Positions 1 through 9,491 of a DNA stretch of 51,091 nt are shown piece after piece. Position 1 is the first letter of the stretch. Each line of letters opens with the position of its first letter. The notes under the pieces are model-generated. The model was not told the DNA's origin. It saw only the letters and a program-made list of their open reading frames with translations, and made no database searches. The stretch is taken from positions 1 through 51,091 of the forward strand of contig JAHFCE010000015.1 in the NCBI GenBank assembly GCA_023249675.1, read 5' to 3'. Both the position numbers and the translations under genes were made by a program. The DNA comes from Elusimicrobiota bacterium (GTDB lineage Bacteria; Elusimicrobiota; Elusimicrobia; UBA1565; UBA9628).

Positions 1-933
1 CTCGGCGATGCCGCCGCGCGCGCCGCCGGCGCGCCGGGCCTGACTGTGTCCCGCGCGCGGGGCGCGTTTTTACTCGCCCGCCGCGCGGCCGCCGCGCATG
101 AGGCGCTGACCGGCGAGGCCGGGGCCGTCTCGCGTGTCGATTCACTCTCCGCCGAGTTCGAGGCCGGAATCAAGCGCGCCATGCTGTCCCCCGCCGACCG
201 GCTCACCTCCGGGCTTGAGACGAGCGTCTCGGGTGACGGCGGCCTGCGCCACTGGGCGTCGCGCTATGCGGCTGACGCCCGCGAGCGGGGCGCAACGGCA
301 TTCGGGACAGTCCGCGGCCCGAGCCCCATTGTGGTGCTTGGCGGCGGCCCAGCCGAACGCGCGGCGGCGACGCTTGCGGCGGCCTCGAAGGGAATGTCGT
401 ACACCGTTTTTGGCGACGCGCTGTGGGCGTCGGGCTTCGGCGTTTACGGCGCTGTGACGCTCTCGGCCGACTTGCGCTCGACGGAGAACGGCGGCTCGAT
501 CGCGCTTGAGATGGAGCGCGGCGATGAGACGCTCGCGTCCTCTCTCGATCAGCTCGGCTTCTCGGTGACGCGCTCGGGCGGCGGCCTGCGCGCGACGCTC
601 GACGTACAGACGATGTCCGCCGACGCGCGGGAAATGACGGAACTTGCCGCGAACGCGCAAGCTCTGGTCTTGGGCGCGCCGTTTAAGTCCGCGGCGACAT
701 CAGCGGGACTCGAACGCCTGCTCGCGGATATGAGGCATAGGCCGCAGGCCGCGGCTCGAATCGCGGTCTCGCTTGACGGTTCCTCGCGCTTGCTGCGCGC
801 GAAGACCGTGGGCTGGGTCGGCGACGACGAAGTCGTCGAGATCCGCTCCCCGGGCGCGCGCGTGATCGCCCTGCGCGATTCCGCGACCGGCCTGGCGAAG
901 TTTGCCCGCCTCGAACCCCTGCGCGCGCGATGA
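1..933 (+). CDS. Unknown protein, 5' end cut by window edge
   Basis: The frame is open from base 1, so the gene very probably starts upstream; a GTG at 46 is only the first start candidate inside the window. About 310 residues are visible, rich in Ala and Arg. I recognise no domain. A glycine-rich segment (VVLGGGPAERAA) near visible residue 110 is followed by mixed alpha/beta sequence. The stop TGA (931-933) overlaps the ATG of the next gene as ATGA, so the two genes are translationally coupled and probably work together. The neighbour is an exported PEP-synthase-like protein, which is the only hint to role. Confidence 0.7.
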   Translation, partial: LGDAAARAAGAPGLTVSRARGAFLLARRAAAAHEALTGEAGAVSRVDSLSAEFEAGIKRAMLSPADRLTSGLETSVSGDGGLRHWASRYAADARERGATAFGTVRGPSPIVVLGGGPAERAAATLAAASKGMSYTVFGDALWASGFGVYGAVTLSADLRSTENGGSIALEMERGDETLASSLDQLGFSVTRSGGGLRATLDVQTMSADAREMTELAANAQALVLGAPFKSAATSAGLERLLADMRHRPQAAARIAVSLDGSSRLLRAKTVGWVGDDEVVEIRSPGARVIALRDSATGLAKFARLEPLRAR

Positions 934-2576
934 GCCGGCCGGCTTTACTGTTCCTCTTGCTCCTCCCGGCTTTGTCTGCGCGCGCCGAGCCGATATCCGG
1001 CTCTTTTCGGGGGCTGACGTTGAGCCTCGGGGCCGGGCGCTCCGTGTGCGCGAGGGTCACATTCGACCGGCGCGTCGCCGAGGCGGGCGGGCGCGTGTTC
1101 GTTCTCGACGCGGCTCAAGAGAGCGACGAGCAGGCGATGCGCCTGTCCGAGGCCGTCATCGCGCGGCGAGGAGGACTCTCGAGTCGTGCGGGGAGCACGG
1201 CTCGCCGTCACGGCGTGCCCGCCGTGGCTCTTGGCCAGGGGCGTTGGGACGGGCGCGGGCCGGCGCTGTATCTTGAGGAGCCGCTCTACGGCGCTGCGCA
1301 AATCGCCTCGGGCTTCTCGTATCGTTCCGTGGTCGGTTTCAAAGAACGGGCGTTGCGCGAGGGCGACGCGGTGATCGTCGACGCGGCGAACGGGCGGGTG
1401 ATCCTTGTGCTTCCGGAGGAAGCGGAGGCGCGCTTAGCCGCCGCCGAGGCCGCGCGCGCCTACGATGGCCTGCGCGACGCGCAGGCGCTTGAGCAATGGC
1501 TCGCGCAGACGCAGGACGCGCGCCGGGGCGCGGCCCTGCTCGAGGAGTTGATCCCCCGCGCGGTCGTGGGTTCGATGTCCGCCGACGACCTGTCTCGCGT
1601 GCGCCGGGCGGCGGAGCTCTCGGTTCCGGCCTCCGCGCGCGCGGAGATGCGCCGCGCGGAGGCGCGGGCCTTTGCGCTTGCCGCGCGCGAGGCCAAGCGC
1701 CGCGCCGAGGATCGCGCGGAAGACGCCGCCGAGGCCCGCGGCGAGAAACCGGCCGATTTCGCCGCGGCCGCCGCAGCCGGGGGCGCCGACCGCCCGGAAG
1801 GCGTCGAGCTGCCGGAAAACGCTTGGGAACGCTTCGTTGAGAGCAACGACCTCGCGCAATGGCTGGAGCGCACGCTCGACGACGCTTCGCTGGGGCTGCG
1901 CCGCAAGTCCGAACGCATCCGGGAGAAGATCATGGCCGCCCGGCTCGACTCCTCCTCGCCCGCGGGTGCGGCTGCGCTCTCCGCCGCCGCTCGCGGGGGC
2001 CTTGTCATTGGAGAAGACGCGGCGCTCAAGGCCGTGGGTCCGGCCGAAGTTCTTGACCGAGTCAAGCAAGTTTGGGCGGCGTCCTGGACGCCCGGTCCGC
2101 TCGGCGCGCGGCAGCGCGCGGGACGCGGGCTCGCCTACGGCGGGCGCGTGCGCGTTGAGACAATGACCACGGCCGACGTGTCCGGCGTGGCGTTCTCCCG
2201 GGACCCCGGCTCCGGACGGCGCGAGCGCGTGTTCGTTGAGGTGGCACCCGGCTCGCTTGAGAGGATTCTTGCCGGCGACGTCGAGACGTCTTCCTATTTT
2301 CTCGACCGGCGCACGGGCCGCGAGGCGGCGCCGCGCTCGGGCCCCGCCGCGGCCGCGCTGTCCGCCGAACGCTTGGCACGGGTCGCGCGCCTGGCGCGCG
2401 CTCTTGACTCATGGAAGGACGCGGGTATTGAGGTCGCGTTCTCCTTTTCCGGCGGGCGCCTGATCGCGCATTACGCGCGCGCCCTTGAGTCTCCGCGCCC
2501 GGTTCTTCCCCTCGACGACCCGTTTGCGCCGCGGCCCGACGCTCAGTTTTTGAACATCAAGCCCGTCGCGCGCTGA
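930..2576 (+). CDS. Exported PEP-synthase-like protein, rearranged and without catalytic His
   Basis: 548 aa. Residues 1-19 form a clear signal peptide (MSRPALLFLLLLPALSARA). Residues about 50-175 resemble the swivelling PEP-utilising domain of PEP synthase/PPDK: the segment GGLSSRAGSTARRHGVPAV (81-99) aligns with the family pattern GG-x-TSHAAI-x-AR-x-x-GIPAV and is followed by a G-x-x-V-x-VD-x-x-x-G-x-V strand. The phospho-accepting His is Arg86 (codon CGT at 1185-1187). After a charged helical stretch (about 180-330), residues about 365-465 resemble the last part of the ATP-binding PPDK_N domain (VKQVWAASWTPG, ADVSGVAFSRDPGSG, a Tyr-x-x-Asp-Arg-x-x-Gly motif). In true PEP synthase PPDK_N comes first, so the order is swapped here. 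Secretion plus loss of His argues against phosphotransfer; a structural or binding role is inference. Coupled to the upstream gene by ATGA. Confidence 0.72.
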   Translation: MSRPALLFLLLLPALSARAEPISGSFRGLTLSLGAGRSVCARVTFDRRVAEAGGRVFVLDAAQESDEQAMRLSEAVIARRGGLSSRAGSTARRHGVPAVALGQGRWDGRGPALYLEEPLYGAAQIASGFSYRSVVGFKERALREGDAVIVDAANGRVILVLPEEAEARLAAAEAARAYDGLRDAQALEQWLAQTQDARRGAALLEELIPRAVVGSMSADDLSRVRRAAELSVPASARAEMRRAEARAFALAAREAKRRAEDRAEDAAEARGEKPADFAAAAAAGGADRPEGVELPENAWERFVESNDLAQWLERTLDDASLGLRRKSERIREKIMAARLDSSSPAGAAALSAAARGGLVIGEDAALKAVGPAEVLDRVKQVWAASWTPGPLGARQRAGRGLAYGGRVRVETMTTADVSGVAFSRDPGSGRRERVFVEVAPGSLERILAGDVETSSYFLDRRTGREAAPRSGPAAAALSAERLARVARLARALDSWKDAGIEVAFSFSGGRLIAHYARALESPRPVLPLDDPFAPRPDAQFLNIKPVAR

Positions 2577-2860: not shown

Positions 2861-4303
2861 TTACGCCGTAGTGCGCCTGATCCAGGAGCGCAGCTCGGCG
2901 AGCTCGTCGGGGCCGAGGAAGCCCGAGACGAGCAGGCCGACCGGGTAGGCCGCGAGCAGCAGAAAACGCGCCGGCAGGCCGACGTTCGAGGCGGGCCACC
3001 ACAAAGCCGCGGTCCAGGCGGCCAGAATCGCAAGCCGCCTCCATTCGTAGGCAACCGGGCGCGAGGCGCGGCCAAGCGCCCACACCGCGGCCGCCATCGC
3101 CGCGTACGCGGCCAACGTGGCCCACGCCGCACCCATCATGCCGAGGCGCGGGATCAGAAGCCCGTTGAGGAGAATGTTGACGAGCGCGCCCGCCCACGTC
3201 GCGGCCGAGACCGCGCCGGTGCGCTTGTCGAGCATCAAAGGCGCGAGCATGACGAAGTACAGGCCGTTGAAGAGATACGCGAGCGTGACGATAGGCACGA
3301 CGGGCAGTCCGCTCCAAAACGAGGGATGAATGAGCGATCTGCCTGCGAACAGGGGCGCGGTGACGAGAGGCTCGATAAAGAAGACGATGGCGAGCAAGGC
3401 CCACGCGCCAAGCGCGCCGAAATAGGTGAGCACGCGGGCGACGATCGCGCCCGCGTCCGGCCGGTCGGCGCGCTCGAGAATAAACGGCTTCCAGGCCTGG
3501 TCGAACATTCCGACAAGCAGCATCATCCCGATGCCGAGCTTGTAGCAGGTGCCGTAGACGCCGGCCGCGGCGAGGCCCGCCGCCCTCGCGAGAATCGGCC
3601 GGTCGGCGACCTGCACGACCATCGAGCCCACGCCGGCGATGATGAGCGGCACGCCGAACGAGAGCATCTCCTTGAGGCGGGCCCGGCCGGGAGCGCTCAG
3701 ACGCGCGAGGATGACGGGTGCCAGCATCGCGAGGCTCGAGAGCGACGCGACGAGATTGGCCAGGAACACTCCGCGCAGACCGAGGTGCAGGACGCGCACG
3801 AACACGTAGGCGAGGACGAGGTTCATCGCGATGCCGACGAGCTTGATGCCCGCGTAGGCCCCGGCGCGGTGGGAGCCGCGCAGCTCCGCGTAGGGCAGGA
3901 GCATGGCCGCGTCGGCGGCGAGAATCCAGGCGCCGTAGCGGACGAGGACGGCCATCTCGGCCGGCAGTCCCACCGCGCGCGCCAGGGGTGCTGCGGCGAG
4001 GTGGATGAGCACCGAGGTTGTCAGCGCCGTGCCCACGACCATCAGGAAGGCGGAGGAGAACGCCGACTCGTCGGCCTTGCCGTCGCGGCGTCCGAGGCGC
4101 AGGTAGGCGGTGTCGAGGCCGAGACCGTACATCACGGTCAGGAAGGCGATATAGGCGTACAGCGCCTGCATCGCGCCGTTGTCGGTCGGCTCCAGCAGGT
4201 GAGAGTACAGCGGCGTGAGCAGAAAGCTCAGCATGCGTCCGAGGACGGTGGACAGGCCGTACACCGCCGTCTCGCGCGCGAGGCCGCGCAGCTCCCTGAG
4301 CAT
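2861..4303 (-). CDS. Wzx-type polysaccharide flippase (MOP superfamily)
   Basis: 480 aa integral inner-membrane protein with about 12-14 hydrophobic helices throughout. The N-terminus (ETAVYGLSTVLGRMLSFLLTPLYSHLLEPTDNG, segments around residues 11-43) is typical of the RfbX/Wzx and polysaccharide biosynthesis family: Arg-Ala/Met-x-x-x-Leu-x-Pro-Leu-Tyr-Ser. These proteins flip undecaprenyl-linked glycan units across the inner membrane. Transcribed divergently from the metallophosphoesterase, with 34 bp between starts; its own TAGGAT -10 lies 6 nt before ATG. The C-terminal seven codons overlap the 19-bp repeat, and the last residues (RRTTA) may have been altered by the cassette insertion downstream. 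No glycosyltransferase cluster is adjacent, so the substrate cannot be named. Confidence 0.85.
   Translation of the reverse strand: MLRELRGLARETAVYGLSTVLGRMLSFLLTPLYSHLLEPTDNGAMQALYAYIAFLTVMYGLGLDTAYLRLGRRDGKADESAFSSAFLMVVGTALTTSVLIHLAAAPLARAVGLPAEMAVLVRYGAWILAADAAMLLPYAELRGSHRAGAYAGIKLVGIAMNLVLAYVFVRVLHLGLRGVFLANLVASLSSLAMLAPVILARLSAPGRARLKEMLSFGVPLIIAGVGSMVVQVADRPILARAAGLAAAGVYGTCYKLGIGMMLLVGMFDQAWKPFILERADRPDAGAIVARVLTYFGALGAWALLAIVFFIEPLVTAPLFAGRSLIHPSFWSGLPVVPIVTLAYLFNGLYFVMLAPLMLDKRTGAVSAATWAGALVNILLNGLLIPRLGMMGAAWATLAAYAAMAAAVWALGRASRPVAYEWRRLAILAAWTAALWWPASNVGLPARFLLLAAYPVGLLVSGFLGPDELAELRSWIRRTTA
2877..2895. repeat. 19-bp direct repeat, copy 2 (3' end of flippase gene)
   Basis: Identical to 2573-2591. 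Read on the minus strand it encodes ELRSWIR near the C-terminus of the flippase, so copy 1 looks like a displaced duplicate of the flippase 3' end. Confidence 0.9.
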
Positions 4304-4315: not shown

Positions 4316-4325
4316 TCAAAACCGT

Positions 4326-4331
4326 TATCCT
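4326..4331 (+). promoter_or_regulatory. -10 hexamer TATCCT of leaderless phosphoesterase gene
   Basis: TATCCT, 6 nt before ATG 4338. This supports 4338 over the upstream in-frame ATG at 4215, which lies inside the divergent flippase gene. Confidence 0.65.
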
Positions 4332-4337
4332 GTGGGT

Positions 4338-5261
4338 ATGGCCCTCGATCGCTTCCTGCCGGAACGCCTCGTGCTGATGGCCTCCCGCTTTCGCACCGAA
4401 CGCCAGCTGCGCCGCCTGTCGCGCCTGCCCGGCTCGGTGGGCGACGCGGTCTCCTTCGCCGTGCTCGGCGACGCGGAGCCGTCGCGCTTTTGGATCTACC
4501 GCAAGCTATTCAATCGCGAGGGCGTGTTTCACGATCAGATGCACGAGCTGCAGAAGATGCCGCTCGCTTTCACGGTCCAACTCGGGGACATGGTCAGCAA
4601 GGGCAACGTCTCGCACTACGAGACGTTCTTTAGAGGCCTGCGCCGCGTCTGGACGGGGCGGCCCTACCTCACCGTGATCGGCAATCACGACCGCTCGCGT
4701 CCGAACGGCAAGTCGCACTCGATCTTATATCGCGGCCTTTTCGGCAAGCCCAACTATTTCTTCGACCACGGCGGCGTGCGCTTCGTGGTCCTCGACTCGA
4801 GCGCCAAGCGCGTGAGCAAGACGCAGCTCAAATGGCTCAAACTCGCGCTCGACGTTTCCGGCCGCAAGATCGTATTCACGCACATGCCGCCGGTTCAGCT
4901 CGGCCTATGGGGCGGGGTCGGCGCCGTCCACGAGCTCGGCGGCTTTATCGGCGGCTCGCGCGAGTTTTCCGACATCGTCTCGGCGGCCGGGGTCAGCCGC
5001 GTCTATATGGGCCATGTCCACGCTTTCGGCGTGCAGGACCACGGCGGCGTGCGCTACGTGCTCACCGGGGGCGGCGGTTCCGCATTATTTCCCTCCGGCA
5101 ACAAGGACAGCTTCCACCATTACCTGACGGTCGAGGTCACGCCCGAGGGCATCCGCGACCGCGTGCACGCGCTCGACGGCAAGGTCTTCGAGATCCCCCA
5201 CGCGCTGGTGCTTCTGCCGACGCACGAGGAGAAGAAGCGCCGCTGGTGGGAGCTGGTCTAA
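4338..5261 (+). CDS. Calcineurin-like metallophosphoesterase
   Basis: 307 aa. The metal-binding motifs appear in order: GDAEPSR near residue 42 (first motif, Glu where many members have His), QLGDM near 80, GNHD near 116, THMPP near 180, and GHVHAFG near 230. This is the Ser/Thr-phosphatase-like two-metal fold that hydrolyses phosphomono- or diesters. No signal peptide; the first 30 residues are basic, so it is probably cytoplasmic or membrane-peripheral. Substrate is unknown. Start at 4338 chosen from the -10 position; the reading frame continues upstream only as antisense of the flippase. Confidence 0.85.
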   Translation: MALDRFLPERLVLMASRFRTERQLRRLSRLPGSVGDAVSFAVLGDAEPSRFWIYRKLFNREGVFHDQMHELQKMPLAFTVQLGDMVSKGNVSHYETFFRGLRRVWTGRPYLTVIGNHDRSRPNGKSHSILYRGLFGKPNYFFDHGGVRFVVLDSSAKRVSKTQLKWLKLALDVSGRKIVFTHMPPVQLGLWGGVGAVHELGGFIGGSREFSDIVSAAGVSRVYMGHVHAFGVQDHGGVRYVLTGGGGSALFPSGNKDSFHHYLTVEVTPEGIRDRVHALDGKVFEIPHALVLLPTHEEKKRRWWELV

Positions 5262-6264: not shown

Positions 6265-7359
6265 TCACGAGGACTTATCCCCTGATCCGTCGCGCGACGG
6301 ATTGGGGGATAACTCGAGCGAAGCGAAGCGCCCGCGGCGCGTCCAGCCGGCGAGCTTGCGGGACTTCGGGTCTTCGACGAGCAGTAAATCGCTGTCGAGG
6401 TCGCACCAGGTGAAAAAGCCCGTGCCGAGGGCCAGGTGCACGCTCGCGGCGAGGCCGCGCGCGGTCTCGGCCATGCAGCCGATCATCAGTGGCAGTTTTG
6501 CCGCGCGCGCCACCGCCGCGATCTCAAGGCCGCGCGAGATCCCCGACTTGGCGAGCTTGATGTTGATGGCGGTCACCCCGGCCTCCATGGCCCGCATGGC
6601 GTCGGAGGGCGTCGCCACGCTTTCATCGGCGGCGACCGGCACGGGACAGCGCAAAGCGACGAACGCGAGCGCTCGGAGGTCGTCTTTCGGCGTCGGCTGC
6701 TCGAATAATTCCACGGGCGCGCCCGTCTTCAGGACCGTCTCGATGAACTTCAGCGCGGATGCCGGGGTGAACCCCTGGTTGCCGTCGAGCAGGAGCCGCG
6801 CTTTCGGCGCGGCCTCGCGCACGGCACGTACGCGCGCGAGGTCGTCGGCCAACCGGCCTGAGACCTTGATCTTAAGGATGCGAAAGCCCGCGGCGGCGGC
6901 CTCGGCCGCGGCGGCGCGTGTCAGCCCCGTGTCATTTGATCCCGAGATCGTGAGGTCGGTTTCGATCCGGCGCGACGCGCCGCCGAGCCAGCCCGCGAGA
7001 TTCGTGCCGGCTTCGGCCGCGAGCGCGGACAGCAGGGCGGCTTCGAAGGCGGCGACGGCGGGGCTTGCGGCCCCATGTCGTTTCCAGGCCTCATCGACGA
7101 GCGCGCGCCAGTCGCGGACGTCGCGGCCGCGCGCGCGGAGGGCCATTTTTTCGAGCGCTCCCCGCAGGACCGCCGGAGTCAGGCGCTTCTGCGCGATCGA
7201 GGTGGACGCCTCCCCGTAGCCCGATGCGCCGCCGCGAAGGCGAATGAAGAGGGCGGCATTCACGGTGCGGTCGCGCCGGCCCGAGGCGGTGATGAAGGGG
7301 CGCCTGAGCCTCAACTCGACCAGGGCGACGCGCGCGGAGGCGACGGCGGTTCGGAGCAC
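6265..7359 (-). CDS. Dipeptide epimerase (L-Ala-D/L-Glu epimerase type, enolase superfamily)
   Basis: 364 aa, GTG start. Enolase-superfamily residues are all present: Lys163-x-Lys165 (KIKVSG), metal ligands Asp192 (LDGNQG), Glu220 (FEQP) and Asp245 (AADES), and Lys268 (NIKLAKSG) opposite. The C-terminal CDLDSDLLL is typical of the dipeptide-epimerase branch, which converts L-Ala-D-Glu from murein turnover into L-Ala-L-Glu. Substrate could be another dipeptide. The -10 TATCGT lies 6 nt before the GTG. The last codons (LSPNPSRDGSGDKSS) are encoded by a 38-bp near-perfect palindrome, suggesting the C-terminus was extended or reshaped by that repeat. Confidence 0.85.
   Translation of the reverse strand: MLRTAVASARVALVELRLRRPFITASGRRDRTVNAALFIRLRGGASGYGEASTSIAQKRLTPAVLRGALEKMALRARGRDVRDWRALVDEAWKRHGAASPAVAAFEAALLSALAAEAGTNLAGWLGGASRRIETDLTISGSNDTGLTRAAAAEAAAAGFRILKIKVSGRLADDLARVRAVREAAPKARLLLDGNQGFTPASALKFIETVLKTGAPVELFEQPTPKDDLRALAFVALRCPVPVAADESVATPSDAMRAMEAGVTAINIKLAKSGISRGLEIAAVARAAKLPLMIGCMAETARGLAASVHLALGTGFFTWCDLDSDLLLVEDPKSRKLAGWTRRGRFASLELSPNPSRDGSGDKSS
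6275..6312. repeat. 38-bp near-perfect palindrome with TTATCC/GGATAA ends
   Basis: Arms 6275-6293 and 6294-6312 match at 17 of 19 positions with no loop. The outer ends read TTATCCCC and GGGGATAA. It lies inside the last codons of the epimerase gene; no T-run follows, so it is not a textbook terminator. Confidence 0.85.
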
Positions 7360-9419: not shown

Positions 9420-9491
9420 TGTCCCCTCCAGGAATCGAACCTGGATTGCCTGCTTAGAAGGCAGGAGCTCTATCCATTGAGCTAAGGGGAC
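9420..9491 (-). tRNA. tRNA-Arg (anticodon UCU), CCA not encoded
   Basis: Full cloverleaf of 72 nt on the minus strand: acceptor GTCCCCT/AGGGGAC, D-stem GCTC/GAGC, anticodon stem CCTGC/GCAGG with loop CTTCTAA (anticodon TCT, reads AGA/AGG), T-stem CCAGG/CCTGG with loop TTCGATT, discriminator A. The next bases are TTTTTTTGA, so CCA must be added after transcription. A perfect TATAAT (9500-9505) ends 8 nt before the 5' end. Confidence 0.95.

Follow-up and report, generated by a model that had tools for sequence, protein, structure and literature searches.

The gene at positions 930-2576 of the window (the whole stretch of DNA analysed here, bases 1-51091 of a contig 68,766 b long) encodes P0002, which from its sequence is predicted to be an exported protein combining two dikinase domains, the phosphate carrier and the ATP binder, with the catalytic residues lost. 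Together with the product of the overlapping upstream gene, P0002 is with high confidence a dead, split paralogue of giant dikinases. For the locus as a whole the best explanation, which we consider reasonably probable, is that this split, dead exported pair serves as a scaffold or binding protein of the cell envelope. The source is a metagenome-assembled Elusimicrobiota genome, 2.6 Mb in size and 98.6% complete. The features are collected in Table 1, where the tRNA gene is the sole Rfam match in the window.

Table 1 Features of the P0002 locus and of the giant genes in the same genome.
Feature	Position	Strand	Basis or remark
Exported partner, C-terminal 310 aa	1..933	+	cut by contig start
ATGA stop/start overlap, partner/P0002	930..933	+	sequence reading
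P0002, predicted exported pseudo-dikinase, 548 aa	930..2576	+	signal peptide, dead swivel, helical linker, dead ATP-grasp
Predicted Sec signal peptide, signal peptidase I type, residues 1-19 (MSRPALLFLLLLPALSARA)	930..986	+	sequence reading
Swivelling PEP-utiliser-like domain, residues ~23-160	996..1409	+	PF00391 match; PEP synthase/PPDK swivel alignment
Arg86 codon, phosphohistidine position	1185..1187	+	swivel motif, ortholog comparison
Helical region, residues 161-285, motif AxRAYDGLRDAQALxxW	1410..1784	+	conserved block
Degenerate ATP-grasp (PPDK_N) domain, residues 286-520	1785..2489	+	Pfam, profile, Foldseek
Polysaccharide flippase (PF01943/PF13440), convergent, conserved downstream neighbour	2861..4303	-	Pfam
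Calcineurin-like metallophosphoesterase (PF00149), a conserved neighbour with uncertain start	4320..5261	+	Pfam
Enolase-superfamily epimerase-like gene (PF13378), conserved neighbour	6265..7359	-	Pfam
tRNA gene	9420-9491	-	Rfam
3114-aa giant, predicted exported	L041:2744-12088, contig C28	+	intact swivel and ATP-grasp, five LMW-PTP
2071-aa giant paralogue without LMW-PTP	L041 12085-18300, contig C28		overlaps 3114-aa ORF

The original prediction of an exported protein with PEP-utiliser-like and PPDK_N-like parts was confirmed by the signal-like N-terminus MSRPALLFLLLLPALSARA, with a predicted cleavage before EP and no lipobox, and by two Pfam domains above their cut-offs. In hmmscan, PF00391 matched residues 54-100 (E 1.3e-6, 28.3 bits against a cut-off of 23.1) and PF01326 (PPDK_N) matched residues 364-464 (E 1e-13, 51.7 bits against 27), both matches being significant and in the claimed order with the swivel before PPDK_N. 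Passing the gathering cut-offs of the PPDK_N and PEP-utiliser families indicates homology only, and the score of P0002 with the NCBIfam model for PEP synthase, TIGR01418 (56.9 bits), lies below the equivalog cut-off of 739.75. Hydrophobic N-termini are present in all two-gene orthologs with an intact start; signal peptides were assigned by eye.

The PPDK_N-like part was correctly recognised, but it is not the mere end fragment that had been proposed: an entire ATP-grasp domain is present, in degenerate form. When the P0002 family profile was compared with ATP-grasp structures it matched PEP synthase (E 1.3e-26) and RPH (E 1.5e-21). A Foldseek search with the predicted P0002 model placed rifampin phosphotransferase, HpeI and PEP synthase at the top, with E values of 1.7e-4 and weaker, and we use this ranking as supporting evidence only. 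The structure predictions used shallow alignments of 7 and 5 rows, which accounts for the low confidence of the models (mean pLDDT 45.7 for P0002 and 48.1 for the partner); moderate confidence is limited to the ATP-grasp lobe at the C-terminus and to some stretches of the helical regions. P0002 lacks approximately 50 aa of an alanine-rich helical linker present in the closest orthologs (window ~1735-1790, residues ~270-285). The contigs of several congeners (G003, G007, and G016) end within the P0002 ortholog, so an assembly collapse at the linker gap is possible.

Both active sites are lost, and the two-gene relatives compared share the loss. The swivel motif of P0002 reads GGLSSR86AGSTARRHGVPAV, with an arginine at the position of the phosphorylated histidine as originally read, and among the two-gene loci of 20 Elusimicrobiota genomes this position is R in 12, P in three, F in two, and L, V or A in the rest, with His in 0/20. 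The homolog survey thus gave no two-gene ortholog with this histidine, and none without a hydrophobic N-terminus where the start was intact. In the ATP-grasp domain of P0002 the VRSSAxxED loop is deleted, and GLGE and the equivalents of the catalytic Glu and Gln are gone. No aligned two-gene member has the VRSSAxxED..AFAGAxET loop, the GLGE segment or the QARP-motif Gln, and only a minority retain the DIEFA Glu. The VRSSAxxED ATP loop is deleted in the aligned fused members as well, one of which (G024) has retained the histidine (GGLLSHAALSARRH), suggesting that ATP binding was lost first.

Phosphate transfer by another route, in which Arg86 or His94 would carry the phosphate or a different protein would bind the ATP, is nevertheless conceivable on the grounds that Arg is the commonest residue at its site (12/20) and that His94 (ARRHGV) is present in 16/20 orthologs. 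Arg86 as a substitute phospho-carrier is rejected since the residue is not conserved (P, F, L, V or A elsewhere), and His94 as a shifted carrier is rejected since four orthologs have Q or R there and the ATP site is dead. In favour of such transfer, dikinases of two components are known in which the ATP-grasp forms a subunit of its own (HpeHI, PMC12167813); against it, none of the aligned members has the ATP loop.

The scarcity of ATP outside the cytoplasm also counts against such transfer, which we regard as scarcely credible. PEP synthase, with which P0002 shares homologous ATP-grasp and swivel domains, is a cytoplasmic enzyme with the order ATP-grasp, swivel and PEP/pyruvate barrel and with a catalytic histidine; P0002 has the reverse order, no barrel detectable by Pfam, and Arg86 in place of the histidine. 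The reversed layout had been flagged as odd, and relative to PEP synthase it is, but the order is not unprecedented and the swapped domains alone are not new: glucan water dikinases and the giants described below share it. In the glucan and phosphoglucan, water dikinases of plants and algae the PPDK_N domain is C-terminal (PMC11986951) and the phosphohistidine domain is essential (PMC12892837), the swivel preceding PPDK_N as residues 54-100 precede 364-464 in P0002. These are, however, active plastid enzymes carrying CBM45 or CBM20 and the essential His (PMC11986951, PMC12892837), whereas P0002 has neither the His nor a carbohydrate-binding module (none was found by Pfam in P0002 or the partner), and the coupled partner gene is found on the P0002 side only. 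Dikinase machinery on two polypeptides is shared with HpeHI, CreHI, and PpsAB, and HpeI is among the Foldseek matches. Those enzymes are active and His-bearing, and their cut separates an ATP-grasp subunit from one with the swivel and substrate domains (PMC12167813), unlike the present pair, where swivel and ATP-grasp lie on one chain and both are dead. Rifampin phosphotransferase, the best structural match of the predicted model and likewise homologous in ATP-grasp and swivel, is an active enzyme with the order ATP-grasp, drug-binding domain and swivel with His825 (PMC4844700).

Translational coupling of P0002 to the upstream gene, as originally claimed, is borne out by the ATGA overlap and by the conservation of the partner: the junction is a 4-bp overlap in 13 of the 14 relatives read from the window's family, and 1 bp in the remaining one. 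In the window the upstream gene is truncated by the contig start, with the last 310 aa only present; in relatives the full-length partner has approximately 775 aa, a signal peptide of its own and a low-complexity linker. A Pfam scan of the partner returned no family, only a sub-threshold match to an NAD(P) fold. The partner is conserved, and it is not unrelated to the giants: hhalign matches its C-terminal half with their pre-swivel segment (probability 98.6%, P 6e-16). Moreover, partner and pseudoenzyme form a single ORF in G024 (1249 aa) and G021 (1134 aa), and this homology and the two fusions together lead us to conclude that the two genes represent one ancestral chain. In the complete chromosome CP096137.1 (L040:5630-9720) neither gene of the pair is intact, each being interrupted into several frames, which may be due to sequencing indels or to real decay.

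An excess of very large proteins in Elusimicrobiota is already known (PMC11573180). The genome of the window carries two such giants on contig C28, as tandem ORFs of 3114 and 2071 aa with a 4-bp overlap. Both have signal-peptide-like N-termini and a swivel followed by ATP-grasp, with the GGGLLSH and ATP-grasp motifs intact, and the C-terminus of the 3114-aa protein is formed by five LMW tyrosine-phosphatase domains in tandem, with CX5RS loops. Four congeners encode proteins of 1742-1758 aa that share the swivel-first order and carry one LMW-PTP domain (3/4 scanned with Pfam). Elsewhere in the phylum open frames reach 12,027 aa with one or two swivel plus ATP-grasp modules, and in another Elusimicrobiota family (L113:615-15386 and L111, L112, L114, and L115) the predicted exported proteins exceed 4000 aa and contain two complete modules. 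A segment INIQDLHCHAE is conserved at the N-termini of L113 and L116-L118.

The giants resemble the pair in having a signal peptide and the order pre-swivel, swivel and ATP-grasp, all three parts being homologous, although the pair has them on two genes, G021 and G024 being the exceptions. They differ from it in being single chains that keep the histidine (27/27 swivel domains from 21 genomes) and all ATP-grasp motifs, and some carry one to five C-terminal LMW tyrosine-phosphatase domains. In the giant of G015 a segment similar to the helical motif follows the swivel. A tree of the shared domains separates the giants from the split and fused group with full support; the same tree does not resolve a single origin of the split.

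With two intact giants in the same genome and domains homologous between giants and pair, the pseudoenzyme could be an allosteric or decoy regulator of active giants, much as many pseudokinases regulate kinases. As a main role this is weakened by co-occurrence: in 15 of the 19 genomes that have the two-gene locus and are at least 90% complete no giant was detectable in sequence searches of these draft assemblies, showing that the pair does not depend on giants, and G002 and G012 have a giant with no match to the operon. We therefore find a regulatory function distinctly unlikely.

It is clear from the substitution rates that P0002 is under purifying selection. Its dN/dS is 0.26 against the G015 ortholog and 0.25 against that of G013, with values of 0.18-0.39 over the swivel, helical and ATP-grasp parts, and compared with G013 the swivel is the slowest-evolving large domain (dN/dS 0.18). 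Among the neighbours the flippase gave 0.15-0.16, the metallophosphoesterase 0.24 and the epimerase 0.25; the partner evolves faster than P0002, with a dN/dS of 0.47. A value around 0.25 means that the gene is maintained, dead domains included, and on this ground we reject the reading of P0002 as a pseudogene.

The relatives of the pair form a series of reductions. In a sister family (f2) the protein stops after the dead swivel, in some members after the helical motif, without ATP-grasp, and in one genus of that family the swivel is gone too, leaving only the partner part and a segment AYQGLKDAQALxxWW. Of all parts of the pseudoenzyme, the helical motif persists the most. At f2 loci L094, L095, L097, L098, and L099 the boundary between the genes falls nearer the start of the ancestral chain than it does in the family of the window, which implies either that the boundary has moved or that the split occurred more than once. 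Relatives without ATP-grasp or without both domains, together with the CP096137 copy in several frames (perhaps sequencing errors), would fit a decaying gene without present function. This is very improbable when P0002, at 0.25, equals two neighbouring enzyme genes (0.24-0.25), and when the open frame and the overlap have been retained over many genera.

The flippase adjoins the two-gene locus in most relatives, although the conserved neighbours may be adjacent by common descent alone. Given the lost chemistry, the selection on the sequence and the adjacent flippase in most relatives, we tentatively regard the pair as a scaffold or binding protein of the envelope that performs no catalysis, a role for which the signal peptides and the neighbours are our guide. 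A rival reading would make the pair a periplasmic or surface binder of a phosphorylated or sugar-like ligand, with the dead swivel docking on the acceptor-like domain of the partner. The partner domain does sit where an acceptor-binding domain of the giants could be expected, and the slow evolution of the swivel and the adjacent flippase and metallophosphoesterase genes fit as well, but the swivel has been lost in a genus that retains the partner and the helical motif, and we consider such ligand binding unlikely.

Returning to the scaffold or binding role, the pair and the giants would descend from a common ancestor with a partner-like domain, a swivel and an ATP-grasp in one chain. In the window's lineage this chain would have given way to two coupled genes, with loss of phosphotransfer. 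Both proteins would be exported by Sec and then probably joined into one complex, which would neither bind ATP in the standard way nor carry phosphate, and which may act in the cell envelope as a non-catalytic scaffold or binding protein, the essential parts presumably being the partner domains and the helical AYDGLRDAQALxxW segment. A wider picture, in which the giants are working exported dikinases, some with tyrosine-phosphatase domains in the same polypeptide, that drive phosphorylation and dephosphorylation beyond the cytoplasm, and in which the pair is a branch of that system without catalysis, trimmed more than once and re-used as an envelope complex, appears doubtful at present.

A scan of the genome collection with P0002 returned relatives from Elusimicrobiota only, and a plasmid search with the pre-swivel and swivel segment gave, outside the phylum, one short PPDK match only. 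Searches of open-access papers turned up no account of dikinase export in Elusimicrobiota, whether of active or of dead forms, and none of secreted PEP-synthase-like proteins. The known dikinases of this superfamily, that of PEP synthase, depend on ATP and reside in the cytoplasm or in plastids. A phylum with apparently exported giants with intact motifs, alongside a lineage that has been split, inactivated and trimmed and is still under selection, constitutes a natural series in which one may ask what dikinase domains do besides phosphotransfer, and it raises the question of what an ATP-dependent enzyme would do outside the cytoplasm.
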